In this document: positions 39,206 to 62,303 of the stretch, one piece after another | Layout of the letters: each line of letters starts with the position of its first letter | Numbering within the stretch: the first letter of the stretch is position 1 | Source of the DNA: Chondrosia reniformis | Taxonomy: Eukaryota; Porifera; Demospongiae; Chondrillida; Chondrillidae | Direction: 5' to 3' | Length of the DNA stretch: 64,000 bases | NCBI GenBank assembly: GCA_947172415.1 | Contig: OX359195.1 | Coordinates: 1,612,001-1,676,000, forward strand | Made by a program: the position numbers and the translations under genes | The notes under the pieces: model-generated | What the model saw: the letters and a program-made list of their open reading frames with translations, nothing else | What the model was told of the DNA's origin: nothing | Database searches by the model: none

Positions 39206-42200
39206 TTGACATTGTCATGAAGTGTAATTTCTTAATTGTACATTAAAATAACTAATAGCAAGCAAATATGTATATTCAATTTTGTTTTCTAACTACAAGC
39301 AATATAGGCATATACTGTATATATATATATTATGTTAAATGTGTTAAATGTGTTGTATTATGTTTTAATAAATTTTTATGAAATACTTTAATTTCCTTTG
39401 AGTTTAACCTAAATGCATGCTGCAAGTACATATATATATATATATGGCTATAGGTAGTCTTTGATCTGTGATGATCAGTATTGCATGTATAATTTGACGG
39501 TATGTTTAGGTTCTTTTCAACACTCTAAAGCCAAGATTTTTCAAGATTTCTTGCTTCAACTGTAAATATTTGAGTTAAGTAAGGATTTTCCAAATTCACG
39601 TGCACCTTATACGAACAGATATGATTTGTTCAGCTGGTACTAGATCTTCATTACTTTCATTAAACTCAACTTGCTTCAAGCATTTTGTTGATTGGAATCA
39701 TTGGATTAGCATTGACTCTGTCATGTTAATGGAATCAAAGAGATGATTGTGACAATTAGAAGAAATTTGTAACAATTTAAAGAAATTTGTGATAGACTGA
39801 TAATCATAACTGTTTATAATTGTAGCATAAGAATATAATAAATCCCAATTCTGAAAATTATTTTTCTTCATTTTTCAAGTGATCTAGCAATAATGTGTGA
39901 ACTTATTCAGGCACAGAAGAGTTATACATCACCAGTAATTTTCCAAACCTGCATGCAGGGAAGGCACCCATACTAACGTATGAATGCACTCTACTAGAAT
40001 CATGTGCACGTGGTCGCAAAGTGTTGCTACATGCACAGCTTAGAGATCTGATTGTATTATATACAATACATACTGCAAGTTACAAATATTATGCATGGTA
40101 TATATATAGGTTGACCATGTCTCTCATAACAGAGTTATAGTTGACAAAGTTAATGTATATATAATTTGGTGAGAGATAGAGCAAATTATAAGTTCCATCA
40201 AAATTTCAAAAACTCTTTGGACATGTTCTTTAGAAATCTCTGAAAGCTGACACAAAGTATTACCTTCAGATATATCTTACCCTTTGATAGATTTATATAT
40301 ATACAGCTTTCAATGTATATATTTACTTTAAATTCTTGTACATATACATGAACTTTGTATACCAGAATTTAATATATATACATTGAGGGCTGTAACTCTA
40401 GATCTATCAAAAGTAATTGAAGCTAATACATTGTGTCAGCATTCACAGACACCTATAGAGCATGTCCAATGAGATTTTGAAATTTTGATGGAACTTAAAA
40501 TTTGCCCTATCTCTCACCATACATTATGCTATGTATATACATGTACGTATATCTGACAGACTAGAGTGGCTTTTAAAGATTTTTTTAAACACATGGATAT
40601 ACACTGTGTAGTACTTGATTGTTGATGAAGTAGTATCTATCCATATATACTATATGGATCTCGTTAAAGTGAAATTTTGCCAATCGACAGCCAATGAAAC
40701 TCCAAAGAAAAAAGTTGGGCCATACTGAATGCTACCATCCACGACGCTCAGAGGCCAGGATCGGTGGTAACGTTCGATCAGCTTATCGAATCTGACGAAG
40801 CAAATTACTGCCAAGTTGAGCTTTGGGTGTCACTTGCGTGAGAAGAACCAGTTCTCGATATGGCCGACTCATATGAATCCTAAGATATCAGATGCCAATC
40901 CCACATATGTAGAACCCCCCCGAAATCTGGATTATTGGTGAGCACGTCTCTATGGCACCAACCGATTAGGAGACAGCTTCAGAGTCTAAGCACTACTAAC
41001 CACTATGGGAACCGCTACCACCATAGAGATGTTTCCAGGTAGGCCTACTTTATAAGGTTTTGCACTTCTATTTAAACAACAAAATTTCGAAAGAAAACGA
41101 TTGTGGTTAGCGCTATTTCATACTAGGGTATTTTCGAGAAAAATGGTCCAATTTCAAGTTAATTACAGATCAGGGCATCGTTTCAAGCAATCTTGCACTA
41201 ATACTCATTACTTGTGGTCCATCTCGAAACTGGGGAAAATGGATAAAATCCTGTATATGTCTTCACAGGCTGAGGAGAACAGCTTTTCTGGTCCCATGTA
41301 GAAACGATTTTAGCGAGAGGTGCTCCGATATCAATGTTTAATACTATAACCAGCCACACTCAATCTCAAATGCTGTAAAACGATACTGGATGCCTACCTC
41401 TATATAGATACCTTCTGTTAGCTGTTGTTTGGACTGTCTTTGTGTGTTTCTAGTTGGTCCCATGCATGTAAAACCTTTTTAGCCTCAGGTGTTCCGATAT
41501 TTGTATGAAAGTATCGTACGATGTACTATAATTAATATACATTTAGTGCTGTAACTTATCTCTCACCATACATAAACTTTGTATACCAGTAATTTATTGT
41601 AACTCTGTCAAACGAAGAGATACGAAGCAGCAACTTTGTATGAAAGATTTCCAATTTGATATTTGCCCAAATTTGTTCTCTATAATATCTTTAACCATAC
41701 ATTAACTTCGTATATAGCCATCTCCTGAGTGAATTCATGGAGCTTCATTATTCACTAAAAGTTAGCTGTCCAGGGTTTGGTTCCCATTGATTGTTCTTTC
41801 TGGTTTAACAATGAATTTTAATGATGAAGCAGATGTGGTTTGACTGTCACATCACATAGAGAGGTTTTAAACATTTAATAGTTGGATATATGCTATTTCA
41901 TTTGAGGACCATACTAACTTGAGCTTTGAACTTCTCAATAGCCATGCTGCTGACTATATTGGATAGCCATCTCCTGATTAATTCTGTGGAGTCACTAAGT
42001 GATGAAATGGTGGTTTAAAATTCAGCTGTCATTTATTCTTTCTGTTTTTAAAGTGAATTATAGCAGTTGCAATTTGGATATCACATCACTACTAATATCA
42101 TTCCTTAAAATAATGGATTTATAAATATTATATCTCTGCATTGAAGTTGTAAAACTTGATAATACTTGTATGTTATTTCATATGAGCACGACACTAACTG

Positions 42201-42451
42201 TAGTTTTAAATAACTTCTTAACAGCTATACATCAGTGGTATGTTAATGTGCAGAGGTTAGGTGTTGAGGAGAATAAGCAAGCATAGTAATTAAGAAAGGG
42301 GGCATGTGTGTGGGTGTGTGGGTGTGTGGATGTGTTGGAGGGGTGACAAACCATCTTTGTCTACTTGTCTCCAATATAAATGGGTGTGGAGGGGTTTATC
42401 AGTTATCTACAGTTAGGAAATAATTTATATGAAGGTTATGTGTTTACCAGG

Positions 42452-43677
42452 GATGGATGGATGGATGGATGGATGGATGAATATGAAAGGATGGATGGAT
42501 ATGGAAGGATGGATGGATATGGAAGGATGGATGGATGGATGGATGGATGGATGGATGAATATGAAAGGATGGATGGATGGATGGATGGATGAATATGAAA
42601 GGATGGATGGATATGGAAGGATGGATGGATATGGAAGGATGGATGGATGGATGGATGGATGGATGGATATGGAAGGATGGATGGATGGATGGATGAATAT
42701 GAAAGGATGGATGGATGGATGGATGGATGGATGGATATGAAAGGATGGATGAATATGAAAGGATGGATGGATATGGAAGGATGGATGGATATGGAAGGAT
42801 GGATGGATATGGAAGGATGGATGGATGGATGGATGGATGGATGGATATGGAAGGATGGATGGATGGATGGATGGATGGATGGATGAATATGAAAGGATGG
42901 ATGGATATGAAAGGATGGATGGATATGGAAGGATGGATGGAAGGATGGATGGATGGATGGATGGATGGATGGATGGATGGATGGATGGATGGATGGATGG
43001 ATGGATGGATGGATGGATGGATGGATGGATGGATGGATGGATGGATGGATGGATGGATGGATGGATGGATGGATGGATGGATGGATGGATATGGAAGGAT
43101 GGATGGATGGATGGATGAATATGAAAGGATGGATGGATGGATGGATGGATGGATGGATATGAAAGGATGGATGAATATGAAAGGATGGATGGATATGGAA
43201 GGATGGATGGATATGGAAGGATGGATGGATATGGAAGGATGGATGGATGGATGGATGGATGGATGGATATGGAAGGATGGATGGATGGATGGATGGATGG
43301 ATGGATGAATATGAAAGGATGGATGGATATGAAAGGATGGATGGATATGGAAGGATGGATGGAAGGATGGATGGATGGATGGATGGATGGATGGATGGAT
43401 GGATGGATGGATGGATGGATGGATGGATGGATGGATGGATGGATGGATGGATGGATGGATGGATGGATGGATGGATGGATGGATGGATGGATGGATGGAT
43501 GGATGGATGGATGGATGGATGGATGGATGGATGGATGGATGGATGGATGGATGGATGGATGGATGGATGGATGGATGGATGGATGGATGGATGGATGGAT
43601 GGATGGATGGATGGATGGATGGATGGATGGATGGATGGATGGATGGATGGATGGATGGATGGATGGATGGATGGATA
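42452..43677. repeat. 1.2-kb GGAT tetranucleotide array with higher-order structure
   Basis: Almost entirely (GGAT)n. In the first 900 bases it is punctuated by AGGATGGATGGATATGGA and GAATATGAAA interruptions; a block of interruptions is itself repeated (about 42640-42960 and 43070-43390), showing higher-order duplication, and the last 300 bases are pure GGAT. Both strands are open for hundreds of codons as a repeat artefact. Confidence 0.97.
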
Positions 43678-43782
43678 CTTGTAATTGGGTGAGGCCTGGG
43701 CTAGAGTGAGGGGCGGGGTCAGGGACAGAGACATCTCCACATGCATAATTGATTAGACTGATTGAAGCCTGAGCTTTGATGT

Positions 43783-43856
43783 GGCAGAGGGAGGGGGAGG
43801 GGAAGTGAGGGGAGGGGAGAGGAGTTGAGAGGAGTTAAGAGGAGGGGAGGGCAGGG
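43783..43856. repeat. Purine-rich GGGGA tract
   Basis: G/A-only sequence of (G)nAGGGG and GAGGAG units upstream of secreted gene A. Equivalent tracts lie at about 51326-51402 (copy B), and at about 58060-58150 and 60333-60428 (copy C). Confidence 0.9.
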
Positions 43857-44367
43857 GTGTAAGAATCAGCTCCGAGGAGAAAAGACCTGGATTTCCTGTG
43901 GTACACTTGTGATGATTCTTCCCGAGGAGACAGTACTAGTTGCATTGAAGTGCAGATTGGCTTTACTCGCTACTATCCCTTTGATCACATATATACATCA
44001 TGCATGCTCCCATAGAAGCTAGTGGCAGGTTTAGACTGTGAGGTCAGTGTTTAACAGGAAATATATAGAAATTGAGAAAGGGTTCAATGATCAGGCAAAC
44101 ATTTTTGTGAGAATGTATTTGAAATATGTTTTAAATTTTGCGAATTGCTTTTATGATTAAACATGAGTGAATTAAAAAATGAAGCCCTCCAGACTTAATA
44201 CGTTGGTGAAATTGAACACAGATAATGCTTGTATATATAATTCCTGAGTTGAACACGTTCACTTAGAAAAAAAGGAAGAAGATTAATTTAGAATAAAAAG
44301 TGAAGCCAGAAAAGAATATAAGGCACGCCAATATTACAAATCTGAAACCATTAAAACCAATTACAAC

Positions 44368-44406
44368 TGGTCATGACCACTAATCCGGTGCCATTTCCTA
44401 TAAAAG
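44368..44406 (+). promoter_or_regulatory. Core promoter of secreted gene A
   Basis: TATAAAAG at 44399-44406 lies exactly 101 bases before the start codon. The 12-bp palindrome TGGTCATGACCA (44368-44379) lies 31 bases upstream of the TATA box. The same arrangement is kept in genes B and C. Confidence 0.75.
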
Positions 44407-44499
44407 CAGCTTCATCACTGTAGCTGCAGCTCAACCAACCACTAACTGCTAGAGAAGCAAGCTCCTAAATCCCATAAGACAACTCAAAGGATCCAAAAG

Positions 44500-45366
44500 A
44501 TGAATTCTACTAAATGGAATTGGATTCTCCTTACTATACTGGCCACTCAGTTTAAACTCACAAGTACAGCTGATACTCAGTGCTGTGAGGTGAGGCAGCA
44601 ATTGGAAGAGATTCACAGCTTGGTAGATCAGTTATTGGAAAGTGTCACTTCAAACTGTCCTGAAGAAGAGGGAATAACACTTTGCCACATTACTAGCAGT
44701 GACTGGAGAAGAGTGGCCTACATCAATATGACTGATCCAGAAGCAGAGTGTCCAAGTGGTCTTAATGAGGTCTCTAACAGCAACACAGGACAGAGAGCAT
44801 GTGGAAGGAGTGTTGATGGAGCAGGCTACAAGGTTGCAGCTCCTGGAGGATGCTCTTCAGTGACCTTTCCTGTGAAAACTACTTACTCTCATGTATGTGG
44901 TTATGCAAGAGGTTATCAGTACAGGACAATGGATGGATTCTGGCAGTCATCACGAAGAACTATTAATGATGCATATGTTGATGGCCTCTCCATCACCCAG
45001 GGCAACCCAAGGAAGCATCTGTGGACCATGTCAGTAGGTTACAGTGAACTTGTTGATCTTTTGGATGTTAGGTGTCCAAGAGATAGAGATCCATTTGATT
45101 TCACCAAAGTACCTGACTTTGTTGATAATAACTTTTATTGTGAAGCTGGCTTCACTTCAAATGCTGAGAAGCGGATTGCTTGGGAGGACCCTCTGTGGGA
45201 TGGACAGCAGTGTGTCTCAAGTACTGCACAGTCTTGTTCAAGATGTGGTTGGTTTCATCGTGACATTATGCCAAGTCAAAAAGACATAGAAGTTAGGTGG
45301 TGTGCTGATCAAAGAAGGCAGGATGAAGATTTCTACACTGATCTTTTGGAGATATGGGTCCTTTAA
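44500..45366 (+). CDS. Secreted cysteine-rich protein, paralogue A
   Basis: A single exon of 288 residues. A signal peptide (about 1-24, WILLTILATQF) is followed by a short amphipathic helix likely to form a coiled coil (VRQQLEEIHSLVDQLLESV, about 32-50). A globular domain rich in cysteines and aromatics follows (about 55-288), with WRRVAYINMTDP, CGYARGYQY, YVDGLSITQGNPRKHLWT and an EIWVL end. Asn in NMT is a possible glycosylation site. I recognise this motif set loosely as a type of extracellular domain seen repeatedly in sponges and cnidarians, but I know of no assigned function or family name. The helix suggests oligomerisation. The start codon follows a TATA-driven leader of about 70 bases conserved in all three copies. 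Confidence 0.88.
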   Translation: MNSTKWNWILLTILATQFKLTSTADTQCCEVRQQLEEIHSLVDQLLESVTSNCPEEEGITLCHITSSDWRRVAYINMTDPEAECPSGLNEVSNSNTGQRACGRSVDGAGYKVAAPGGCSSVTFPVKTTYSHVCGYARGYQYRTMDGFWQSSRRTINDAYVDGLSITQGNPRKHLWTMSVGYSELVDLLDVRCPRDRDPFDFTKVPDFVDNNFYCEAGFTSNAEKRIAWEDPLWDGQQCVSSTAQSCSRCGWFHRDIMPSQKDIEVRWCADQRRQDEDFYTDLLEIWVL

Positions 45367-45655
45367 ATTGCCACGAACTGCTATGATTATTAAGCCAAAA
45401 ACTGTAGTTAATACACATTTATTAAAATATTAGTCAGTCTTTATTGTATTTCGCTTGTATATACATGTATATATGTATGATTGTATGTACATATTAAAAG
45501 AAATTATTTCATTTATTTGTGAAGTGAACATTCCTACAAAGTTATACCAGTTTTGGAAAGTTTGATGAAATATTGAATCCTAACTCTGCACCATATATAA
45601 TGGTCACATGCATTCTCATTCTTGAAGATTATTATTGTATATATATAACTTATAA

Positions 45656-46454
45656 AGTACTACACAGTGCAAGTTATGAATTTATACATGTACATGTACA
45701 CGGATGCAAGTGACTCCCAAAATAATCACAATCAGGTATACATATTAAACGCTACAAGACTCTAGCCACACTGAAATTCTTAACTTCTGTATACAGAGTA
45801 GTAGTCTCTACAGAACATCTAAGGGGTTAAACACATGGCCTTCCAATTACCTTTTCACACCTTAGTATAGACTGAAGATAATGCATCAGCATGCCATTAT
45901 CAGCCAAATTCTAGTCTCAGGGGGTCTCAGCTAATAATCACTGCAGATTTGATTTGCCTTGAGTGTGATTCACATAGACAACAGAATTAGAGACCATTTG
46001 GTAACTTGCACACAAGGGACATAAAGGCAGGGGCCTTTAATTTATTTCATGCACAATGTCTCTATCTCCCTTAATTGTGTGCAAGTTACCAAATGGTCTA
46101 TAACCCTGTTGTTTATGTGAATGCATACAACCAACCGTCGGTACTCTAACTCACACTCAAGGTAAATCAAATCGATCTGCGGTGATTATTGGCTGAGACC
46201 CCTTGAGACTGGAATTTTGGCATGCAGATGCATCATCTTCAGTCTATACTAAGGTGTGAAAAGGTAATTGGAAGCCCATGTGTTTAACCTTATATGATCT
46301 GTAGAAACTAATACTCTGTATGCAAAAAGTGAGAATTTCAGTGTGGCTAGAGTCGATCTTGAAGAATTTAATTTACCTGATTGTGATTATTTTGGGAGTC
46401 ACTTGCATCCGTGTACATGCATGTATAAATTCGTAACTTGCACTGTGTAGTACT
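45656..46454. repeat. 800-bp foldback element downstream of gene A
   Basis: Arms of about 380 bp start AGTACTACACAGTGCAAGTT and end in the inverted sequence near 46454. Paired inner blocks include CCAATTACCTTTTCACACC with GGTGTGAAAAGGTAATTGG, and AGAGACCATTTGGTAACTTG with its inverse. The arms are diverged, so it is older than the 80-bp perfect hairpin. A second foldback of similar sequence follows at about 46780-47330. Confidence 0.8.
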
Positions 46455-49400
46455 ATATAAGTTATGTTAGTGAGTTTAGAAACTGTATGTTAATTATAGC
46501 TATGTATATAAACCAATTAGGTTTCATTTATGCTCACTATACGTACGTATGTGTTTATCATTTAAACAGGAAGTTACAGAAGCATATAGCGGTAATCCAT
46601 TTACAGTATACATTAAAACTGAATTAAAAACATGATTCTAAAGCGTGTCAGGTATTTGTAAACCAAGATTTCTCAACCGTGACTAGTCTTTTGAAATATA
46701 GCCTGTTAAGCTTAAATATGAACCAAATTTAGGTAAACCATTAGTTTTCACTTCAGTTAGTTTTTTGGGACACTCCTATAAAATTTTGTTAACCTGTGCC
46801 TTCCTGTTCGTAACCTTGTATATATAGTACAAGTTACAATTAATCAAATATATTTTACATTGTATACTATTACACATGAAAAAAGTTACATTATACAATA
46901 TAAATAATATAATGGAGTAGAAGTTGATACAGATCATACAAGGTAGAACACATGGCCTATAAATTACCTTTTCACACCTTATGATAGACTGAAGATGATG
47001 CATGCATTCACATAATCAACAGGGTTAGAGACCATTTTTTAACTTGCACACAAGGGACATCATATGACATATATATGTATATAAAGGCCTTTCATGTCCT
47101 TGTGTGCAAGTTACAAAATGGTCTCTAACCCTGTTGATTATGTGATTGCATGCAATCAAACGTCGGTATTCTTTAATAGCTCCCTCACAAGGCTAGTCAA
47201 ATCTGCTGTGGTTATTAGCTGAGACCCCTTTAAGACTGGAACCTTTGTTGATATATACCATGCAGATGCATTATTGCAGTCTATACTAAGGTGTGAAAAG
47301 GTAATTGGTAGGCCATGTGTTCTACCTTATATGATCTGTAGAGACTATACTACTCTGTATGCATAAGTTGATAATTTCAGTGTGGCTAGTCGTGTAGCTG
47401 ATTGTGATTATTTTGGGAGTCACTTGCATCCGTGTATATATTCGTAACTTGCACTGTGTAGTATATGTCAAATAAGTTGCATCATCTTTAGTCTGTTCAA
47501 AATATATTATATCGAATGTAACTTTGCTAGCAAAGTACCTCACTATAGAGACATTCACTATATATACACTAAATCGATTATCTTCAAATATTGGTATCAC
47601 ATTAATAATCTACCAAATACACCATTACCTAAACAAATACTACTACATCTTTCTAAACTAAACTTAAAGGACAGTTGGTACTCAAACGATTTATCAGTAG
47701 AGAATCATAATTATTCCTACTCCTACACTGATGTCCCCTTTAGTAATAAACAGGCCTTCATCAAATATACACAGCATTAAAGGAATGGAATAAGGACGTA
47801 AATATGGGATAGTAATTAATAGCCAGTCTGGTGGTAGGTTGGCTCTCTAGAGACTCTTGAAAGGGTGCCCCTCTGTGGAGGAGTATGTGGTGATGGGAGA
47901 TCGAGGTTGACTATGTGTAGTCTTTGATCTGTGATGATCAGAGTTGCATATATAATTTGACGGTGTGTTTAGGTCTTTTCAACACTCTAAAGCCAAGATT
48001 TTTCAAGATTTCTTGCTTCAACTGTAAATACTTGAGTTAAGTAAGGATTTTCCAAATTCACGTGCACCTTATACGAACAGATATGATTTGTTCAGCTGGT
48101 ACTAGATCTTCACTACTTTCATTAAACTCAACTTGCTTCAAGCATTTTGTTGATTGGAGTCATTGGATTAGCATTGACTCTTGTCATGTTAATGGAATCA
48201 AAGAGATGATTGTGACAGTTAGAAGAAATTTATAACAATTTAAAGAAATTTGTGATAGACTGATAACCATAATTGTTTATAATTGTAGCATAAGAATATA
48301 ATAAATCCCAATTCTGAAAATTATTTTTCTTCAAGTGATCAGTGATCTAGCAATAATGTGTGAACTTATTCAGGCACATAAGAGTTATACATCACCAGTA
48401 ATTTTCCAAACCTGCATGCAGGGAAGGCACCCGTACTAACGTATGAATGCACTCTACTAGAATCATTTGCACGTGCATGGTCGCAAAGTGTTACTACATG
48501 CACAGCTTACAGATTTGATTGTATTATATACAATACATACTGCAAGTTACAAATATCATGTATGGTAAATATATAGGTTAACCTTGTCTCTCATAACAGA
48601 GTTATAGTTGAGAAATAAATTCTGGTATACAAAGTTAATGTATATATAATTTGGTGAGAGATAGAGCAAATTATAAGTTCCATCAAAATTTCAAAAACTC
48701 TTTGGACATGCTCTATAGAAATCTCTGAAAGCTGACACAAAGTATTACCTTCAGATATATCTTACCCTTTGATAGATTTATATATACAGCTTTCAATGTA
48801 TATATTTACTTTAAATTCTTGTACATATACATGAACTTTGTATACCAGAATTTAATGTACATTGAGGGCTGTAACTCAAAAGGAATTGAAGCTAATACAT
48901 TGTGTCAGCATTCACAGACACCTATAGAGCATGTCCAATGAGATTTTGAAATTTTTTATGGAACTTAAAATTTGCCCTATCTCTCACCATACATTATGCT
49001 ATGTACATACATGTACGTATATCTGAAAGACTAGAGTGCTTTCAAAGATTTTTTTTAAACACATGGATATATACTGTGTAGTACTTGATTGTTGATGAAG
49101 TAGTATCTATCCATATATATTATATGGATGTCGTTAAAGCAAAATTTTGCCAATCAACAGCCAACGAAACTCCAAAGAAAAAAGTTGGGCCATAATGAAC
49201 GCTACCATCCACGACACTCAGAGGCCAGGATCGGTGGTAACATTCGATAGACTAATCGAATCTGAGGAAGCAAATTACTGCCAAGTTGAGCTTTGGGTGT
49301 CACTTGCATGAGAAGAACCAGTTCTTGATATGGCCGACTCATATGAATCCTAAGATATCAGATGCCAATCCCACATACGTGGACCCCCCCCCCCCCCCGA

Positions 49401-51002
49401 AATCTGGATAATTGGTGAGCACGTCTCTATGGCACCAACCGATTAGGAGACAGCTTCAGAGTCTAAGTACTATATACTAACCACTATGGGAACCGATACC
49501 ACCATAGAGATGTTTCCAGGTAGGCCTACTTTCTAAGGTTTTGCGCTTCTATTTAAACAACAAAATTTTGAAAGAAAACGGTTGTGGTTAGCGCTATTTC
49601 ATTCTAAAGAATAGGGTATTTTCGAGAAAACTGGTCCAATTATTTCAAGTTAATTACAGATCAGGGCATCGTTTCAAGCAATTTTGCACTAATACTCATT
49701 ACTTGTGGTCCAGCTCGAAACTGGGGAAAATGGATAAAATCCTGTATGTGTCTTCACAGGCCGAGGAGTACAGCTTTTCTGGTCCCATGTAGAAACAATT
49801 TTAGCGAGAGGTGCTCCGATATCAATGTTTAATACTATAACCAGCCACACTCAATCTCAAATGCTGTAAAACGATACTGGATGCCTACCTCTATATGGAT
49901 ACCTTCTGTTAGCTGTTGTTTGGACTGTCTTTTTGTGTTTCTAGTTGGTCCCATGCATGTAAAACCTTTTTAGCCTCAGGTGTTCCGATAGTTTGTATGA
50001 AAGTATTGCACGATGTATTATAATTAATATACATTTAGTGCTGTAACTTATCTCTCACCATACATAAACTTTGTATATCAGTAATTTATTGTAACTCTGT
50101 CAAACGATAAGATATGAAGCAGCAATTTGGTGTCAGTCTTCACAGACATGTATGAAAGATTTCCAATGAGTTTTACAAAATTTTATATTTGCCCAAATTT
50201 GTTCTCTATAATATCTCTAACCATACATTAACTTCGTATATAGCCATCTCCTGAGTGAATGCATGGAGCTTCATTATGAAATGGTGACTAAAAATCAGCT
50301 GTCCAGGATTTGATTCCCAATGATTATTCTTTTTGGTTTAACAATGAACCCCAACGATGAAGCAGTTGTGGTTTGACTCTCACATCACTTGCATAGAGAG
50401 GTTTTAAACATTTAATAGTTGGATATATGTTATTTCATTTGAGGACCATACTAACTTGAGCTTTGAACTTCTCAACAGATATTCTGCTGACTACATTGGA
50501 TAGCTATCTCTTGACTAATTCCGTGGAGTCACTAAGTGATGAAATGGTGGTTAAAAATTCAGCTGTCATTATTCTTTCTGCTTTTAAAGTGTATTATAGC
50601 AGTTGCGAATTGGATATCACATCATTACTTAATATCATTCCTTAAAATAATGGATATATATATATATATATTATATCTCTGCATAGAGGTTGTAAAACTT
50701 GATAATACTTGTATGTTATTTCATATGAGCACGACACTAACTGTAGTTTTAAATAACTTCTCAACAGCTATACATCAGTGGTATATGTTAATGTGCATAG
50801 GTTAGGTGTTGAGGAGAATAAGCAAGCATAGTAATTGAGAAAAGGGGCATGTGTGTGGGTGTGTGGATGTGTGGGAGGGGTGATAAACCGTCTTTGTTTA
50901 CTTGTCTACAAAATATAATATAAATAGGTGTGGAAGGGTTAATTTGTCAGTTATCTACAGTTAGGAAATAAATTTATATGAAGGTTATATGTGTTTAACA
51001 GG

Positions 51003-51206
51003 GATGGATGGGATGGATGAATGGATGGATGAATGGATGGATGGATGGACGGATGGATGAATGGATGGATGGATGGACAGATGGATGGATGGATGGATGA
51101 ATGGATGGATGAATGGATGGATGGATGGATGGATGGATGGATGGATGGATGGATGGATGGATGGATGGATTGATATGGATATGGATAGATGGATGGATGG
51201 ATGGAT
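51003..51206. repeat. GGAT array of cassette B
   Basis: About 200 bases of (GGAT)n with GGAC and GAATGGAT interruptions, in the same position as the 1.2-kb array of cassette A but about six times shorter. Cassette C has no GGAT array. Confidence 0.95.
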
Positions 51207-51935
51207 TTTATTTGGTGAGGCCTGGGCTAGAGTGAGGGGCGGGGTCAGGACAGAGACCCACTGGACACACCTCCACATGCACTGATCAGACTGATTGAAG
51301 CCTGAGCTTTAATGTGGCAGTAGAAAGGGGAGGGAGGGGGAGGGGGAGTGAGGGGAGGGGAGAGGAGTGGAGAGGAGATAAGAGGAGGGGAGGGCAGGGG
51401 TGTAGGGATCAGCTCCGAGGAGAAAAGACCTGGATTTCCTGTGGTACACTTGTGATGATTCTTCCCGAGGAGACAGTTGCATTGAAGTGCAGATTGGCTT
51501 TACTCACTACTATCCCTTTGATCACATATATACATCATGCACGCTCCAGTTTTGGAGGGAGAAAGATGGCTGACATCCATTGAAGTGGCAGGTCTGGACT
51601 GTGAGGTCAGTGTTTAACAGGAAATATATAGAAATGGAGAAAGGATTCAATGATCAGCCAAACATTTTTGTGAGAATGTACATGTATTTGAAATATATTT
51701 TAAATTTTACGTATTGCTTTTATGATTAAACATGAGTGAATTTAAAAATGAAGCCCTCCTGACTTAATATGTTGTTGAATTTGAACACAGATAATGCTTG
51801 TATATATAATTCCTGAGTTGAACACATTCACTTAGAAAGAAAGGAGAATATTAATTTAGAATAAAAAGTGAAGTCAGAAAAGGGCATAAGGCACGCCAAC
51901 ATTACAAATCTGAAACCATTAAAACCAATTACAAC

Positions 51936-51974
51936 TGGTCATGACCACTAATCCGGTGCCATTTCCTATAAAAG
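51936..51974 (+). promoter_or_regulatory. Core promoter of secreted gene B
   Basis: TATAAAAG at 51967-51974 is 101 bases before the start codon, and the intact palindrome TGGTCATGACCA is at 51936-51947. Confidence 0.75.
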
Positions 51975-52067
51975 CAGCTTCATCACTGTAGCTGCAGCTC
52001 AATCAACCACTAACTGTTAGAGAAGCAAGCTCCTAAATCCCATTAGACAACTCAGAGGATCCAAAAG

Positions 52068-52928
52068 ATGAATTCTGCTAAATGGAATTGGATTCTCCTT
52101 ACTATACTGGCCAGTCACTTGATACTCACAAGTACAGCTGACACTCAGTACTGTGAGGTGAGGCAGCAATTGGAAGAGATTAACAGCTTGGTAGATCAGT
52201 TATTGGAAAGTGTCACTTCAAACTGTCCTGAGGGAATAACACTTTGCAACATTACTAGCAGTGACTGGAGAAGAGTGGCCTACATCAATATGACTGATCC
52301 AGAAGCAGAGTGTCCAAGTGGTCTTAATGAGGTGTCTAACAGCAACACAGGACAGAGAGCATGTGGAAGGAGTGTTGATGGAGCAGGCTACAAGGTTGCA
52401 GCTCCTGGAGGATGCTCTTCAGTGACCTTTCCTGTGAAAACTACTTACTCTCATGTATGTGGTTATGCAAGAGGTTATCAGTACAGGACAATGGATGGAT
52501 TCTGGCAGTCATCACGAAGAACTATTAATGATGCATATGTTGATGGCCTCTCCATCACCCAGGGCAACCCAAGGAAGCATCTGTGGACACTGGCAGCAGG
52601 TTACAGTGAACTTGTTGATCTTTTGGATGTTAGGTGTCCAAGAGATAGAGATCCATTTGATTTCACCAAAGTACCTGACTTTGTTGATAATCACTTTTTT
52701 TGCGAAGCTGGCTTCACTTCAAATGCTGAGAAACGGATTGCTTGGGAGGACCCTCTGTGGGATGGACAGCAGTGTGTCTCTAGTACTGCACATTCTTGTT
52801 CAAGATATGGCTGGTTTCATCGTGACATTACACCAAGTCAAAAAGACATAGAAGTCAGGTGGTGTGCTGATCAAAGAAGGCATGATGAAGATTTCTACAC
52901 TGACCTTTTGGAGATCTGGGTCCTTTAA
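52068..52928 (+). CDS. Secreted cysteine-rich protein, paralogue B
   Basis: 286 residues in one exon, collinear with paralogue A except for a two-residue deletion in the acidic segment after the coiled coil (NCPEGI instead of NCPEEEGI). Near the N-terminus one cysteine of the CC pair is replaced by Tyr (DTQYCEV), and near the C-terminus Cys becomes Tyr in SRYGWF. Both substitutions remove cysteines and could leave a pair of partners unpaired or reflect loss of one disulphide. The central domain is otherwise nearly identical to A, including YVDGLSITQG. The open frame and conserved promoter suggest it is functional. Confidence 0.87.
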   Translation: MNSAKWNWILLTILASHLILTSTADTQYCEVRQQLEEINSLVDQLLESVTSNCPEGITLCNITSSDWRRVAYINMTDPEAECPSGLNEVSNSNTGQRACGRSVDGAGYKVAAPGGCSSVTFPVKTTYSHVCGYARGYQYRTMDGFWQSSRRTINDAYVDGLSITQGNPRKHLWTLAAGYSELVDLLDVRCPRDRDPFDFTKVPDFVDNHFFCEAGFTSNAEKRIAWEDPLWDGQQCVSSTAHSCSRYGWFHRDITPSQKDIEVRWCADQRRHDEDFYTDLLEIWVL

Positions 52929-53049
52929 ATTACCACAAACTGCTATGATTCTTAAGCCAAACTGTAGTATTAATACTATATAAACATTTATTAAAATATA
53001 TATATATATATAGTCAGTCTTAATTTAGTATTGTATTTCATTTGTTAAT

Positions 53050-55100
53050 GGCATGCAGATGCATCATCTTCAGTCTATACTAAGGTGTGAAAAGGTAATT
53101 AGAAGCCCATGTGTTTAACCCCTTATATGACCTGTAGAAACTACTACTCTGTATGTAAAAGCTTAGAATTTCAGTGTGGCTAGAGTCTCTCTTGTAGCGT
53201 TTAATATACCTGATTGTGATAATTTTTGGGAGTCACTTGCATCCGTGTACATGCATATATAAATTCGTAACTTGCACTGTCTAGTACTATATAAGTTATG
53301 TTAGTGAGTTAAGAAACTGTATGTTAATTATAGCTATGTATATAAACCAATTAGGTTTCATTTATGCTCACTATAAGTACGTATGTGTTTATCATTTAAA
53401 CAGGAAGTAACAGAAGCATATAGCAGTAATCCATTTACGGTATACATTAAAACTGAATTAAAAACATGATTCTAAAGCGTGTCAGGTATTTGTAAAGCAA
53501 GATTTCTCAACCGTGACTAGTCTTTTGAAATATAGCCTGTTAAGCTTAAATATGAACTAAATTTAGGTAAACCATTAGTTTTCACTTCAGTTAGTTTGGG
53601 ACACCCCTATATTGTTATCAGAAATTATGTTAACCTATGGCTTCCTGTTCGTAACCTTGTATATACAGTACAAGTTACAATTAATCAAATATATTTTACA
53701 TTGTATACTATTACAGATGAAAAAAAGGACATTATACAATATAAATAATATAATAGAGTAGAAGTTGATACAGATCATACAAGGTAGAACACATGGCCTA
53801 TAAATTACCTTTTCACACCTTATGATAGACTGAAGATGATGCATGCATTCACATAATCAACAGGGTTAGAGACCATTTTTAACTTGCACACAAGGGACAT
53901 CATATGACATATATATGTATATAAAGGCCTTTCATGTCCTTGTGTGCAAGTTACAAAATGGTCTCTAACCCTGTTGATTATGTGATTGCATGCAATCAAA
54001 CGTTGGTATTCTTAAATAGCTTCCTCACAAGGCTAGTCAAATCTGCTGTGGTTATTAGCTGAGACTCCTTTTTATGTGGCATGCAGATGCATTATCTTCA
54101 GTCTATACTAAGGTGTGAAAAGGTAACCCCATGTGTTTAACCCCTTATATGACCTGTAGAAACTACGAGAATTTCAGTGTGGCTAGAGTCTCTCTTGTAG
54201 CGTTTAATATACCTGATTGTGATAATTTTTGGGAGTCACTTGCATCCGTGTACATGTATATATAAATTCGTAACTTGCACTGTCTAGTACTATATAAGTT
54301 ATGTTAGCGAGTTAAGAAACTGTATGTTAATTATAGCTATGTATATAAACCAATTAGGTTTCATTTATGCTCACTATAAGTACGTATGTGTTTATCATTT
54401 AAACAGGAAGTAACAGAAGCATATAGCAGTAATCCATTTACGGTATACATTAAAACTGAATTAAAAACATGATTCTAAAGCGTGTCAGGTATTTGTAAAG
54501 CAAGATTTCTCAACCGTGACTAGTCTTTTGAAATATAGCCTGTTAAGCTTAAATATGAACTAAATTTAGGTAAACCATTTGTTTTCACTTCAGTTAGTTT
54601 TGGGACACCCCTATATTGTTATCAGAAATTATGTTAACCTATGGCTTCCTGTTCGTAACCTTGTATATACAGTACAAATTACAATTAATCAAATATATTT
54701 TACATTGTATACTATTACACATGAAAAAAGTTACATTATACAATATAAATAATATAATGGAGTAGAAGTTGATACAGATCATACAAGGTAGAACACATGG
54801 CCTATAAATTACCTTTTCACACCTTATGATAGACTGAAGATGATGCATGCATTCACATAATCAACAGGGTTAGAGACCATTTTTTAACTTGCACACAAGG
54901 GACATCATATGACATATATATGTATATAAAGGCCTTTCATGTCCTTGTGTGCAAGTTACAAAATGGTCTCTAACCCTGTTGATTATGTGATTGCATGCAA
55001 TCAAACGTCGGTATTCTTTAATAGCTCCCTCACAAGGCTAGTCAAATCTGCTGTGGTTATTAGCTGAGACCCCTTTAAGACTGGAACCTTTGTTGATATA
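53050..55100. repeat. About 1,028-bp tandem duplication inside cassette B
   Basis: Two nearly identical units begin GGCATGCAGATGCAT at 53050 and at 54078; a partial third start is at about 55104. Cassette A has one such unit (from about 46220). Each unit includes the TTAACTTGCACACAAGGGAC foldback and its inverse. Confidence 0.85.
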
Positions 55101-56478
55101 TACCATGCAGATGCATTATTGCAGTCTATACTAAGGTGTGAAAAGGTAATTGGTAGGCCATGTGTTCTACCTTATATGATCTGTAGAGACTATACTACTC
55201 TGTATGCATAAGTTGATAATTTCAGTGTGGCTAGTCGTGTAGCTGATTGTGATTATTTTGGGAGTCACTTGCATCCGTGTATATATTCGTAACTTGCACT
55301 GTGTAGTATATGTCAAATAAGTTGCATCATCTTTAGTCTGTTCAGAATATATTATATCGAATGTAACTTTGCTAGCAAAGTACCTCACTATAGAGACATT
55401 CACTATATATACACTAAATCGATTATCTTCAAATATTGGTATCACATTAATAATCTACCAAATACACCATTACCTAAACAAATACTACTACATCTTTCTA
55501 AACTAAACTTAAAGGACAGGTGGTACTCAAACGATTTATCAGTAGAGAATCATAATTATTCCTACTCCTACACTGATGTCCCCTTTAGTAATAAACAGGC
55601 CTTCATCAAATATACACAGCATTAAAGGAATGGAATAAGGACGTAAATATGGGATAGTAATTAATAGCCAGTCTGGTGGTAGGTTGGCTCTCTAGAGACT
55701 CTTGAAAGGGTGCCCCTCTGTGGAGGAGTATGTGGTGATGGGAGATCGAGGTTGACTATGTGTAGTCTTTGATCTGTGATGATCAGAGTTGCATATATAA
55801 TTTGACGGTATGTTTAGGTCTTTTCAACACTCTAAAGCCAAGATTTTTCAAGATTTCTTGCTTCAACTGTAAATACTTGAGGATTTTCCGAATTCACCTT
55901 ATACGAACAGATATAATTTGTTCAGCTGGTACTAGATCTTCACTACTTTCATTAAACTCAACTTGCTTCAAGCATTTTGTTGATTGGAATCATTGGATTA
56001 GCATTGACTCTTGTCATGTTAATGGAATCAAAGAGATGATTGTGAGAGTTAGAAGAAATTTATAACAATTTAAAGAAATTTGTGATAGACTGATAACCAT
56101 AATTGTTTATAATTGTAGCATAAGAATATAATAAATCCCATTTCTGAAAATTATTTTTCTTCAAGTGATCAGTGATCTAGCAATAATGTGTGAACTTATG
56201 CAGGCACATAAGAGTTATACATCACCAGTAATTTACCAAACCTGCATGCAGGGAAGGCACCCATACTAACGTATGAATGCACTCTACTAGAATCATGTGC
56301 ACGTGGTCGCAAAGTGTTACACAGCTTAGAGATCTGATTGTATTATATACAATAAATACTGCAAGTTACAAATATCATGCATAGTATATAATTGGTATAG
56401 GTTGACCTTGTCTGTCATAACAGAGTTAATTGTATTACGTATAAGTTGAGAAATAAATTCTTGTATACCAAGTTAATG

Positions 56479-56720
56479 CATGAAATGATATGGAGTAGTT
56501 GTTGCGATCATAATTAGTTAATTGATGATTATTGAGCTGCAGCAACAGGAATATTCTTTAGAATTGAACGTTTCGACCCTAAGGTCTTCTTCAGCAATAA
56601 TGAAATGTGTGAAATGAATTGTGTTCCTATTTCATTATTGCTGATGAAGATTTTAGGGTCGAAATATTCAATTCTAAAGAATATTCCTGTTGCTGCAGCT
56701 CAATAATCATCAATTAACTA
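56479..56720. mobile_element. Palindromic insertion with two hammerhead-like cores and a 9-bp target duplication
   Basis: The 242-bp insertion is bounded by AAGTTAATG at 56470-56478 and again at 56721-56729; cassettes A and B have a single uninterrupted copy of this site. Its arms (from about 56515 and to about 56720) are inverted repeats over some 55 bp. The left half in reverse reads CTGAAGA, AGACCTTAGGGTC, GAAACG (56594-56571), and the right half reads CTGATGA (56641-56647), AGATTTTAGGGTC, GAAA (56661-56664). A third helix is possible between ATATTC and GAATAT. It is related to the repeat at 22797. Confidence 0.75.
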
Positions 56721-59707
56721 AAGTTAATGTATATAATTTGGTGAGAGATAGCAGAGAATCCATCAAAATTCAACATGCTCTATAGATATCTCTGAATGCT
56801 GATCATGACACAAAGTATTACCTTCAGATATATCTTTCTTTTTGATAGATTTATATACAGCTTTCAATGTATATAATATATTTACTTTAAATTCTGGTAT
56901 ATATATGTACATGAACTTTGTATACCAGAATTTAATGTACATTGAGGGCTGTAACTCTATCAATAGGAATTGAAGCTAATACTTTGTGTCAGCATTCACA
57001 GACATGCATGTATAGAGCATGTCCAATTAGATTTTGAAATTTTGATGGAACTTAAAATTTGCCCTATCTCTCACCATGCATTAAAAGTCTGTATACCAGA
57101 TAGTACTTGATTGTTGATGAAGTAGTATCTATCCATATATACGTACTATATGGATGTTGTTAAAGTGAAATTTTGCCAATCGACATGCAGCCAACGAAAC
57201 TCTAAAGAAAGAAAGTTGGCCATACCGAAACGCTACCATCCACGACGCTCAGAGGCCGGGATCGGTGGTAACGTTCAGCTTATTGAATCTGACGAAGCAA
57301 ATTAGTGCCAAGTTGAGCTTTGGGTGTCACTTGCGTGAGAAGAACCAGTTCTCGATATGGCTGACTCATATGAATCTTAAGATATCAGATGCCAATCCCA
57401 CATACGTGGAGACCTCCCGAAATCCTGATTACTGGTGAGCACGTCTCTATGACACCAACCGATTAGGAGACAGCTTCATAGTCTAAGCACTACCAACCTC
57501 TATGGGAACCGCTACCACCATATATAGATGTGTCCAGGTAGGCCCTCGGGTGTGTCCCGATATTTTGCATGAAAGTATCGCACAATGTACTATATCTTAA
57601 ATATGCATTTAGTACTGTAACTCTTTCAAACGGAGAGATATGAAGCTGCATGAAACCTTGAATCAGTATTCACAGACATGTATGAACGATTTCCAATGAG
57701 TTTTGCAAATTTTAATATCTGTTCACCTTATCTTTCATCGTATACATTGTCTTGGTATACCAGTAATTTAATGTACATTTAGTGCTGTAACCCTGTCAAG
57801 TGGAGAGATATGAAGCAGCAACTTTGTGTCAGTATTCACAGACATGTATGAAAGGTTTCCAATGGGTTTTACAAACTTTGATATCTGCCCAAATGTGCCC
57901 TATCCTCACCATATATTGCCTTCATATATCAGTAATTTAATGTACATTGAGGGCTGTAACTCTATCAAATGGAAATATATGAAGCTAATATACTTTGTGT
58001 CAGCATTCACAGACACCTATAGAGCATGTCCAATGATTGAATGATTGGTACATAGTACGTAGGAGAGAGGAGAGGAGAGGAAAGGAGAGGAGAGGAGGGG
58101 AGAGGAGAGGATGGGAGTGGAGTAAAAAGGAGTTAAGCAGAGGCGAGGAGAGGTAAATATAATAAATTAGTAATTAAAAGAGTTATTAGAAAATAATTCA
58201 AATTCCTTTCCAAAAAAGCCTCTTGAATATTCAAACACTTTGAGATAATAACTAATAAAGAAGAGATGGGGATATCTTCTTTTGTTGGAATGTGACAATA
58301 TCTACATTTATAGTTTTGCAATGTTTTACAAATTTCTGTTTCTGCTAATAACTTTGTTGAAGGTACTGATATTCTTACTCCGGTTAACTTTATTACATGA
58401 ACATATACCACACCCTGCAATATAAATACAATATAATATATAAGATGATACATAGTGTATGTAATATCATGAAACTCACTTCACTATCAACTAAGAACTA
58501 TCAACCTTATGAAAGAGAGGCGGAGCAATAGACAAACCACACCCAAGTAATATACTGTATAAGCAGGCCAGTAATGATATTCATGAGAAGGCCGGAGGTC
58601 TCACATGATCTTAATATATATTATTTTGTTGCTGTACAATATCAGAGCGGGTACCTTGAAGGTTGCCTTGGGAACCAGCCATATCTCCTTAGGAGTCAGA
58701 CTCAGAGGAGAAAAGACCTGGATTTCCTGTGGTACACTTGTGATGATTCTTCCAGAGGAGACAGTTGCATTACAGTACAGATTGGATGTACCCACCACTA
58801 TTCCCTTGATCACATACATCATGCACGCTCCCATTTTGGAGGGAGAAAGATGGCTGACTGCCATAGGATTAGCAGGTCTGGATTGCATGAGGAGGAGTTT
58901 AACTTGAAATATCATAGAAATGGAGTTAGGATTCAAAGTCATTATCAACCAAACATAAAATGACATACAGTATTTGTGTTTGAAAAAATATTTTTAATTA
59001 CATATATATTGCTTTTATGATTAAACCTGGAGTAAATTAAAATTGAAGCCCTCCAGACCTAAATATGTCAGAAATGAAACACAGATTACACTTGTATAAT
59101 TCCTGGCTGAACTGTTTTGAACTAGGAAGAAGGAAGAATTTATATAGAAGAAAAAAAAGAGGCCAGAAGAGTATAAGGATTATGATTATAATATTTGTCT
59201 AATCCTAGCTATTTTGCAATTTTAGAATTTTGCATGCAAATATTCCACACACTAAAGTACGTACCTGATTGTTGTGTGTAGTGTCTTTGGGTGAGGTATA
59301 AGGTTCATGTGGTCGTACTGATCTGTAGGGAATGCGCTATCATGACTATCCAAGATCTGTACACAAGCCAATATTGAATGGTCAACTTGCACCTGTAGGG
59401 TGGGGTGGGGTAGATCAGTATGACTTCAGGTGGGAGGAGTGGGATCCAGTCACCTATTATATATATACCAGCCACTTGCACATTAATGAGTATATATCAG
59501 ATAAAACCACTTTGGAAGAAAGAGAGGTTCCCAGATCCAAACACTGATCTCTAATTAACATGGACATGGAAACTGCCCTCCAACTTGGGGTACACCTATG
59601 ATGCAACAATTACACAATCATAAAAAGTGAAATGAGAAGATAAAATATTCCTAAAAGCCAATCAAAAGAGAAAAGAAACAAGCCATATGGGAAAGAGTAC
59701 GTATACA

Positions 59708-59818
59708 GCACAATAATCCACCCCCTCTGTAATCCACCCCCTCTGTAATCCGCCCCCTCAATAATCCACCCTTCTGTAATCTGCCCCCTCTAAAATCCAC
59801 CCCCTCAATAATCCACCA
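59708..59818. repeat. C-rich 16-bp tandem repeat
   Basis: Six or seven diverged copies of TAATCCACCCCCTCTG in cassette C, not seen in the other cassettes. Confidence 0.85.
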
Positions 59819-60654
59819 ACACCACTTATCTGATCATGAAACATTAGTGTTTCAACCGATTATTGAGGTGATCGATACTGTTAAAAAATAGTTTAATATT
59901 GAGAAACTAAAGGACAGGTCACATGCATATCACATGCTGAGGGAGCTATGAATATAATTACATCCATACCTCATTATCAATATGGTTAAACAGTAGTAAT
60001 CTCTTTGGATTCAGCAATTTGATAATTTAGAAGACATTTCTTTTGACTCCAATGAAATGCCTTCTTGAAATAATACTTCATCAAGGTAATGGTTTGAGAA
60101 AGTTTTCAAAGTCACGGACCCAATCTGATTGGTTAGAGAGACTGTAGTGGGTGCATGGTTACCATGGTGACACATTTCAAATGTGTCAGGAGGTATATAG
60201 GAAGGATTGCTTGATCCCCATTTCCATTATAGATGAAAAGTTGTCCAATTTGGAAACATGGACACTTTTAATAGATATATAAAATGATAACAATATTATC
60301 AATATGCACATGTACAAATATTGTTTTACCAAAGGGGAGGGAGGGGAGGGAGGGGAGGGAGGGGAGGGAGGGGAGGGGAAGTGAGGGGAGGAGAGAGGAG
60401 AGGAGAGGAGTTGAGAGGAGGGGAGGGCAAAATCATGCATGATCAGCCAAACATTTTTGTGAGAATGTATTTGGAAAAATATTTTAAATTTTACGTAATG
60501 CTTATATGATTAAACATGGAGTAAATTAAAAACCCTGTGTTGAAACACTTTCACTTAGAAAGGAAGGAAGAATTTAGAATAAAAAAGTGAAGCCAGAAGA
60601 GAGTATAAGGCACACCAATATTACAAATCTGAAACCATTAAAACCAACTACAAC

Positions 60655-60693
60655 TGTTCATGACCACCAATCCGGTGCCATTTCCTATAAAAG
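60655..60693 (+). promoter_or_regulatory. Core promoter of secreted gene C
   Basis: TATAAAAG at 60686-60693 again lies 101 bases upstream of the start codon. The palindrome is broken by one base (TGTTCATGACCA, 60655-60666), the only copy with such a change. Confidence 0.72.
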
Positions 60694-60786
60694 CAGCTTC
60701 ATCACTGTAGCTGCAGCTCAACCAACCACTAACTGTCAGAGAAGCAAGCTCCTAAATCCCATTAGACAAATCAAAGGATCCAAAAG

Positions 60787-61653
60787 ATGAATTCTGCTAA
60801 ATGGAATTGGATTCTCCTTACTATACTGGCCAGTCACTTGATACTCACAAGTACAGCTGACACTCAGTGCTGTGAGGTGAAGCAGCAATTGGAAGAGATT
60901 CACAGCTTGGTAGATCAGTTATTGGAAAGTGTCACTTCAAACTGTCCTGAAGAAGAGGGAATAACACTTTGCCACATTACTAGCAGTGACTGGAGAAGAG
61001 TGGCCTACATCAATATGACTGATCCAGAAGCAGAGTGTCCAAGTGGTCTTAATGAGGTCTCTAACAGCAACACAGGACAGAGAGCATGTGGAAGGAGTGT
61101 TGATGGAGCAGGCGCTGCAGCTACAGCTCCTGGAGGATGCTCTTCAGTGACCTTTCCTGTGACAACTACTTACTCTCATGTATGTGGTTATGCAAGAGGT
61201 TATCAGTACAGGTCAATGGATGCATTCTGGCAGTCACCAATAAGAACTATAGATGATGCATATGTTGATGGCCTCTCCATCACCCAGGGCAACCCAAGGA
61301 AGCATCTGTGGACCATGTCAGTAGGTCATAGTGAACTTGTTGATCTTTTGGATGTTAGGTGTCCAAGAGATAGAGATCCATTTGATTTCACCAAAGTACC
61401 TGACTTTGTTGATAATAACTTTTATTGCGAAGCTGGCTTCACTTCAAATGCTGAGATGAGGATTGCTTGGGAGGACCCTCTGTGGGATGGACAGCAGTGT
61501 GTCTCTAGTACTGCACATTCTTGTTCAAGATGTGGCTGGTTTCATCGTGACATTATACCAAGTCAAAAAGACATAGAAGTCAGGTGGTGTGCTGATCAAG
61601 GAAGGCATGATGAAGATTTCTACACTGATCTTTTGGAGATCTGGGTCCTTTAA
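60787..61653 (+). CDS. Secreted cysteine-rich protein, paralogue C
   Basis: 288 residues in one exon with the same signal peptide, coiled-coil helix and domain as A and B. Most of the protein is identical or nearly so, but replacements cluster in one stretch (about residues 109-157): GAGAAATAPGG instead of GAGYKVAAPGG, TTTYSH instead of KTTYSH, and SMDAFWQSPIRTIDD instead of TMDGFWQSSRRTINN-like sequence. All cysteines of A are retained. The clustering could reflect gene conversion from an unseen paralogue or selection for a changed surface. Confidence 0.88.
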   Translation: MNSAKWNWILLTILASHLILTSTADTQCCEVKQQLEEIHSLVDQLLESVTSNCPEEEGITLCHITSSDWRRVAYINMTDPEAECPSGLNEVSNSNTGQRACGRSVDGAGAAATAPGGCSSVTFPVTTTYSHVCGYARGYQYRSMDAFWQSPIRTIDDAYVDGLSITQGNPRKHLWTMSVGHSELVDLLDVRCPRDRDPFDFTKVPDFVDNNFYCEAGFTSNAEMRIAWEDPLWDGQQCVSSTAHSCSRCGWFHRDIIPSQKDIEVRWCADQGRHDEDFYTDLLEIWVL

Positions 61654-61924
61654 ATTACCACAAACTGCTATGATTCTTAAGCCAAACTGTAGTATTAATA
61701 CTATATAAACATTTATTAAAAAAAAATAGTCAGTCTTAATTTAGTATTGTATTTCATATGTACGTATATACATGTATATATGTATGATTGTACATACATA
61801 TTAAAAGAAATTATTATTTCATTTATTTGTGAAGTGAACATTCCTACAAAGGTATATCCTACCAGTTTTGGAAAGTTTGAATCCTACCTCTGCACCATGG
61901 TTACATGCATTCTCATTCTTGAAG

Positions 61925-62303
61925 TTTACATATATCATATTATATACATTTGGTGCTCAAACTCTACGTATATAGCAAATATAAATATATATACATATAT
62001 ATAACTAACACCAATTCTAATTATGGATACATTATATGGTTTATATATATATACAAAAAATCATTACCAGCTGCAGTCTTATAAAATTACTGGTATATGG
62101 AAGTTTAAACTAGGCCGATAAATATTTTTATATCACCACTTACATTTTCAGTTTGAAATCATAAAAAATATCACCAACGTTTGTCATATAGTGAGTTTTA
62201 GTAAATAATAAATAACATTCAAGTGAGTAAATTAATGTTTATAATGCACAGTCTATTGCTATAATCAATTTATCATGTAAAGAACAGCTAATTAACAAGA
62301 GCT
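61925..62303. other. Spacer between cassette C and the helicase gene
   Basis: AT-rich with (TA)n runs. It holds the convergent 3' ends of secreted gene C and the DEAD-box helicase and nothing else I can identify. Confidence 0.45.

Follow-up and report, generated by a model that had tools for sequence, protein, structure and literature searches.

A tandem gene triplication in the sponge Chondrosia reniformis lies within a large, clustered family of predicted secreted proteins that may form a recognition repertoire

Three tandem gene units on chromosome 7

The stretch of DNA analyzed here, called the window in the following, comprises 64,000 nucleotides of chromosome 7 of the sponge Chondrosia reniformis (C7:1,612,001-1,676,000 of odChoReni1.1, in which 15 contigs add up to 117,379,552 bases). 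Self-alignment of the window revealed three head-to-tail units, A, B and C, with spacings of 8463 and 7845 bases (Table 1), which align with one another over a gene and its upstream DNA and have TAGTCTTTGATCTGTG in common at all three unit starts. Each gene is a single uninterrupted open reading frame (ORF), and the protein of A shows 94% identity to that of B and 92% to that of C. The signal peptide and the coil in these proteins were assigned by eye. Upstream of each gene lies the TATA motif TATAAAAG, and a 41-base TATA segment is identical in all three units, which was reproduced in 0 of 100 shuffles. The three-copy head-to-tail array proposed in a preliminary description of this DNA is thus borne out by the self-alignment. 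The further proposal that the cassette travels as a whole holds for the purine tract, the conserved upstream block and the TATA segment, which are present in three units, but not for the 3-kb upstream block, which is complete in A and B alone and of which C retains parts. The order and orientation of the units and their shared starts are as expected from tandem duplication, for which unequal exchange is the simplest route. The preliminary description had likewise invoked unequal crossing-over; the family context and the segment histories reported below go beyond it.

Uncollapsed haplotypes or a false duplication might also simulate such an array. Curation of the assembly is described as having taken out four haplotypic duplications (PMC12181767), and two 5.5-kb stretches of chromosome 7, 63 kb apart, are 100% identical, possibly due to false duplication. 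However, the units of the window diverge by about 3-6% where they align and are set apart by kilobase-scale events, and the assembly is reported to be built on PacBio HiFi data of about 70x coverage (PMC12181767). An artefact of this kind, against which the preliminary description had cautioned, is therefore highly improbable.

A large, clustered family with a uniform core promoter

The genome was searched twice at the protein level, with 135 and 142 scored matches, which merge into at least 159 places of the family on all 14 chromosomes, a lower bound because the search scores the best candidates only. These are places rather than proven genes, and some contain stops or are fragments; 146 are at least 600 bases long. 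Chromosome 7 carries 82 of the places, 63 of these below 2.8 Mb. For 132 of the 159 places a neighbour was found within 15 kb; in 200 random placements this applied to 6.2 places on average and to no more than 16. The members are clustered, and the array in the window is best read as a local tandem triplication within this very large sponge family of predicted secreted proteins. Base-by-base examination, to which the results below refer, covers the members fetched from among these places.

The DNA that members have in common begins chiefly at the TATA box, and the onset of similarity is abrupt. Among 26 leader loci, all retained although the frame is broken in three and a further one has no ATG, the mean pairwise difference in 28-base bins amounts to 0.415-0.630 upstream of the TATA box and to 0.06-0.17 from there to the leader. 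The upstream DNA of unit A (39445-44370) has only small blocks in common with three of the 21 other family loci tested. The conserved upstream block is also present at one locus at 1.95 Mb of chromosome 7 (L035, 72.7% identity). The family therefore has a sharp promoter boundary: TATA core promoter and leader are uniform and are followed by a variable stalk and then by the C-terminal domain. An intron in the paralogs was considered and rejected: the approximately 63 extra codons of many chromosome 7 members stay open and were read as a longer stalk.

Two side observations concern these loci. A segment of about 70 bp (43860-43934 of the window), 91-98% conserved, also occurs near three other paralogs on chromosome 7 and is a possible candidate for a distal regulatory element. 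Furthermore, L025 and L027 (chromosome 7, about 530 and 593 kb), the pair with identical stretches mentioned above, agree over 5481 bases, and L026 and L028 are 99.9% identical over 4.2 kb; the identity of L025 and L027 may stem from a large duplication of very recent date or from one introduced by the assembly.

Protein architecture and outside relatives

The C-terminal domain of about 230 residues combines a cysteine-rich framework with hypervariable patches. In many distant members the same domain is preceded by a collagen stalk and a neck, or by an intelectin-like segment. In a sample of 20 members from beyond the main set, collagen runs of at least five G-X-Y triplets were found in 12, the fibrinogen/intelectin-type N segment (strict motif SC..I...GYYWI...YCDM) in ten and both together in five; since ten of the 20 had been picked for matching a long-form query, these fractions are not representative of the whole family. 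By eye, the N segment is seen in two more members (L059 and L063). Alignment of the window genes to the C-terminal remainder of the family gives an E-value of 6.7e-59, and these genes may be derived from longer forms by loss of collagen and N segment.

A profile of 12 long members matches the lectin XEEL (E 1.4e-6) and intelectin-1 (E 5e-5 and 6.1e-5) in the N segment only, and no PDB or Pfam match was obtained over its C-terminal part. The Pfam fibrinogen domain gave no match in the window genes or in the distant members scanned. Prokaryotic relatives of the window domain were not found in two scans of genome contigs, and 50,697 phage records likewise gave no match at the limits applied. Two IMG/VR viral contigs (L055 and L056), however, encode an adhesin-like protein with a related C-terminal part: profiles of the viral and the sponge parts align with hhalign probabilities of 95.9% and 98.1% (E 1.4e-13 for the latter). 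Of five scans of viral contigs, three returned these same two contigs only and two returned none, and a matching cysteine framework was not seen in the viral/sponge alignments. One of the viral proteins further contains an Ig-type domain, and each of the two has matches to phage families whose function is unknown. As a side observation, the viral proteins (L055 874-1923, L056 3-1511) have a fibrinogen-like N-terminal part with a weak angiopoietin match (E 0.02).

Variation along the domain and probable exchange between copies

In the DNA scanned, 47 copies of the domain were present. Removal of two copies with stops and of eight below 62% identity left 37, and four of five near-identical copies of one array were then removed, so that 33 copies were used for synonymous divergence (dS), the pairwise homoplasy index (PHI) test, trees, patches and triplets. 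Along the C-terminal domain, dS per window of the alignment ranges from 0.046 to 1.149. In a PHI-type permutation test, 0 of 2000 shuffles reached the observed value at each of four window sizes k (2, 5, 10 and 20). Trees of three segments reject each other in all six comparisons by the approximately unbiased (AU) test. The history thus differs from segment to segment of the domain. The variability forms clusters (0 of 10000 shuffles), with 81 of 230 usable columns invariant, and three hypervariable patches, residues 108-116, 181-192 and 217-226 of gene A, exceed the permutation threshold.

Gene C was followed along the alignment. It equals gene A over columns 1-50 (150/150 bases), is alike to A, B and two other paralogs over columns 51-72 (54/63 each), and is closest to the 504-kb paralog over columns 73-112 (117/120 versus 113/120 for A or B). 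Within the latter stretch, seven consecutive informative sites in columns 87-100 support the closer resemblance of gene C to this paralog, which lies about 1.1 Mb away, than to A or B. Permutation reproduced this tract in 26 of 200000 trials with A as the backbone and in 15 of 200000 with B, values uncorrected for the choice of donor. The eight triplets behind the tract were chosen after a triplet ranking of the 33 copies, which returned mostly long tracts with distant backbones and said little on single events. Tandem clusters with sequence exchange between members, one of the marks of a diversified immune multigene family, are found here.

These data also bear on a structural role, in which collagen- or coil-stalked proteins would be secreted into the matrix of a sponge body that has no spicules, copy number would answer a need for dosage, and the patches would be unconstrained loops. 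The collagen runs of the distant members fit such a role, as does the body of C. reniformis, which is described as dense and collagenous (PMC7459819). Below threshold, the N segment matches COLFI, the fibrillar collagen C-propeptide, in seven of seven members of one scan (E 1.1e-5 to 0.044), although in none of five sponge proteins in another Pfam scan, and a ratio of nonsynonymous to synonymous differences (pN/pS) near 1 in the patches suits relaxed loops. On the other hand, the patches lie among the invariant columns, a dosage family would be expected to be homogenised along its full length and not chiefly at the 5' end, and the N segment is nearer to intelectins than to collagen propeptides in the PDB (E 1.4e-6 versus 0.14). 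We consider the matrix role rather unlikely.

Divergence of genes and flanks

Coding sequence (CDS) and flanking DNA of the three units were compared, as the preliminary description had contrasted nearly identical genes with a diverging flank. The CDS differ at 28/861 positions for A-B (3.3%), 36/867 for A-C (4.2%) and 36/861 for B-C (4.2%), the pooled aligned non-coding DNA at 201/3845 (5.2%), 96/1598 (6.0%) and 79/1459 (5.4%), respectively. CDS divergence is the lower in all three pairs and significantly so in one (Fisher p 0.014, 0.061 and 0.199 for A-B, A-C and B-C). When the dispersed-repeat piece is left out, p becomes 0.125 for A-C and 0.723 for B-C, and when the CDS are compared with only the far upstream segments, none of the pairs reaches significance (p 0.060, 0.706 and 0.126), with B-C reversed, the CDS being the more divergent. 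By segment, non-coding differences range from 2.7% to 13.5%. The synonymous differences of 5.8%, 6.4% and 5.0% (A-B, A-C, B-C) are near the pooled non-coding values. In the same order, dN/dS is 0.43, 0.55 and 0.80 according to Nei-Gojobori and about 0.42, 0.42 and 0.57 according to YN00, and pN/pS is 0.44, 0.56 and 0.80 (Fisher p 0.060, 0.091 and 0.535). Because the contrast between CDS and non-coding DNA is small and dN/dS lies at 0.43-0.80, the constraint on the genes that had been proposed is mild, and "nearly identical" overstates their similarity. Gene and flank are divided more clearly by indels and repeat growth than by substitutions, with 0-1 gaps in the CDS and 2-26 in upstream segments.

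Ordinary tandem duplication under mild purifying selection, with no special diversification, would be in line with the preliminary description, and the three ordered units, the lower CDS divergence and the pN/pS values of the gene pairs agree with it. However, the size and clustering of the family, the conflict between the segment trees, which argues against a single tree for all segments, and the uneven synonymous divergence along the domain are not what this explanation would lead one to expect, and we regard it as improbable.

A candidate recognition repertoire

The family is probably a secreted recognition repertoire that has been diversified by tandem duplication and by exchange between genes. 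In the course of events that we envisage, tandem units would arise by unequal exchange, gene conversion would hold the promoter, the leader and the first part of the domain alike, and variants of the later patches would persist or move between loci. The proteins would be secreted and oligomerised through the stalk, and the variable patches might bind diverse targets, for instance foreign cells, symbionts or microbes, in the manner of collagen-stalked and fibrinogen-related defence lectins. The genomic evidence is strong; the recognition role is inferred. A farther-reaching version is possible but doubtful: a germline-diversified, multimeric repertoire with an unnamed binding domain, in which exchange between genes would hold promoter and leader constant, patch variants would circulate between loci up to megabases apart, and part of the domain would have passed to or from adhesins of marine viruses.

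Several results weigh against a diversified repertoire. The Shimodaira-Hasegawa (SH) test rejects five of the six tree comparisons, with p 0.053 for the sixth. In the patches, pN/pS is 0.86-0.98 compared to 0.37-0.68 elsewhere, and positive selection is not demonstrated. Selection at the nucleotide level might also explain why synonymous divergence is low at the 5' end. The gene C tract is weaker with three other donors (134 to 2285 of 200000, p values uncorrected), and A and B, rather than C, may be the copies that changed. The greater divergence of the pooled non-coding DNA favours the preliminary description. Collagen and the intelectin-type N segment are absent from all three window genes; Pfam Collagen matched five of 12 sponge proteins scanned, every time below the cut-off, and the scan of five proteins without a COLFI match belongs here as well. 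Pfam and the PDB gave no significant match to the window domain (best PDB E 0.17), and one structure model, of gene A with two sisters, was unusable with a mean predicted local distance difference test (pLDDT) score of 29.5.

Comparison with known systems

Large diversified families of secreted recognition proteins are best known from sea urchins and snails. The SpTransformer (Sp185/333) genes form an immune multigene family; their proteins are secreted and are not known to be related in architecture to those of the sponge family. For the purple sea urchin, a report on these genes describes tandem duplication of three genes with their flanks, in segments bounded by microsatellites, and proposes gene conversion (PMC3091723). 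The sponge array is alike in the tandem duplication of three genes with flanks and microsatellites; it differs in that the urchin genes have two exons whereas the sponge genes are single ORFs, and in that GGAT repeats are common throughout the sponge genome. In the fibrinogen-related proteins (FREPs) of snails, diversity is ascribed to gene conversion and point mutation (PMC12074976). Distant sponge members resemble them in the fibrinogen/intelectin-type segment, which the window genes lack. With ficolins and intelectins the sponge members that join collagen, neck and intelectin-like N segment have this arrangement in common, the difference being the C-terminal part without a match. A survey assigns collagen-bearing ficolins to vertebrates and urochordates only (PMC11312191), a statement against which these sponge members are worth checking.

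In the sponge Dysidea avara, genes with fibrinogen domains are reported to shift expression after exposure to microbial molecules (PMC6208332), and a placozoan is described as having thirty-one intelectin-like genes, part of which are active in the secretory epithelium (PMC12013895). The cytotoxic protein chondrosin of C. reniformis, described as having 199 residues with a 21-residue signal, was set beside the family by description only. In titles and the beginnings of abstracts, with most subscription journals outside the scope, no published account of this family or of diversified collagen-stalked sponge families was found.

If the proposed role is correct, a family of at least 159 places with collagen and intelectin-type parts would take the strategy of a recognition repertoire towards the base of the animals, and even a sponge may keep such a diversified repertoire in its DNA. 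It would also be a concrete candidate for how a microbe-rich sponge separates partners from intruders. Furthermore, the dS profile along one exon predicts sites of exchange and hence offers a natural test of conversion versus selection.

Non-coding features and surroundings of the array

Table 1. Features of the tandem array in the window
Feature	Position	Strand	Remarks
Unit A	39445..45631	+	Self-alignment; upstream block, GGAT array, purine tract, conserved block, gene A, short 3' flank
Dispersed part of upstream block	40344..41560		Short tandem satellite and about 1 kb of sequence found on other chromosomes
GGAT microsatellite array, unit A	42451..43676		1226 bp; repeat listing
Purine tract, unit A	43789..43857	+	Repeat listing
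Conserved upstream block, unit A	43860..44323	+	Self-alignment; 71% identity to C
TATA motif of gene A	44399..44406	+	101 nt 5' of ATG; near upstream limit of similarity, 26 loci compared
Gene A	44500..45366	+	288 codons, 867 bases, apparent signal peptide
Foldback/palindromic element between A and B	45640..47463		Dispersed transposon-like family
Unit B	47908..53042	+	Self-alignment
GGAT microsatellite array, unit B	51002..51206		205 bp; repeat listing
Purine tract, unit B	51326..51400		Repeat listing
Conserved upstream block, unit B	51403..51867		Self-alignment; 78% identity to C
TATA motif of gene B	51967..51974	+	101 nt 5' of ATG
Gene B	52068..52928	+	286 codons, 861 bases, apparent signal peptide
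Foldback element between B and C	53043..55308		Same family, with tandem doubling of about 1 kb
Unit C	55753..61928	+	Self-alignment; upstream block kept in part, extra DNA
Conserved upstream block, unit C	58690..59178		Self-alignment
Purine tract, unit C	60333..60427		Repeat listing
TATA motif of gene C	60686..60693	+	101 nt 5' of ATG
Gene C	60787..61653	+	288 codons, 867 bases, apparent signal peptide

The large events by which the units had been said to differ were mostly recovered. GGAT arrays of 1.2 kb, 0.2 kb and none had been noted for A, B and C, in agreement with the repeat listing of the window, which contains none in unit C. The doubling of a unit of about 1 kb 3' of gene B was found as 53049-54289 versus 54077-55308 (90% identity), and the insertion in C corresponds to apparent extra DNA at 56429-56719 and 59179-60438, as judged from alignment gaps. 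The foldback arm described as lost in B persists in the spacer between B and C, there only as an inverted stretch (53043-53299, 88.6%). It belongs to a dispersed element with 216 matches in the genome, in which one palindromic copy is often counted on both strands, on 13 of 14 chromosomes among the matches listed. Because this family is dispersed, the foldback was rejected as a component of the cassette; it looks like a non-autonomous transposon. Its core measures about 740-820 bp, and end pieces of 69 bp adjoin other copies.

A role of GGAT as a driver particular to this array is unsupported, as such repeats are common in the genome: a 28-base GGAT pattern gave 2098 forward and 2143 reverse matches, overlapping ones counted, all on C1 among the matches listed. 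The repeat at 40344-41560 has some copies near chromosome ends, at distances of up to about 250 kb, and others farther away.

The array is flanked on the left by an ORF of 274 codons (38381-39205) and on the right by a minus-strand ORF (62304-63920) that matches DEAD-box helicase and CTE_SPB4 models. Elsewhere in the window, an ORF of 367 codons (23757-24860) with several hydrophobic stretches appears receptor-like by eye, the Pfam scan giving no convincing match, and clean minisatellites are present at 20927-21185 (20-bp unit) and 27778-28075 (13-bp unit).

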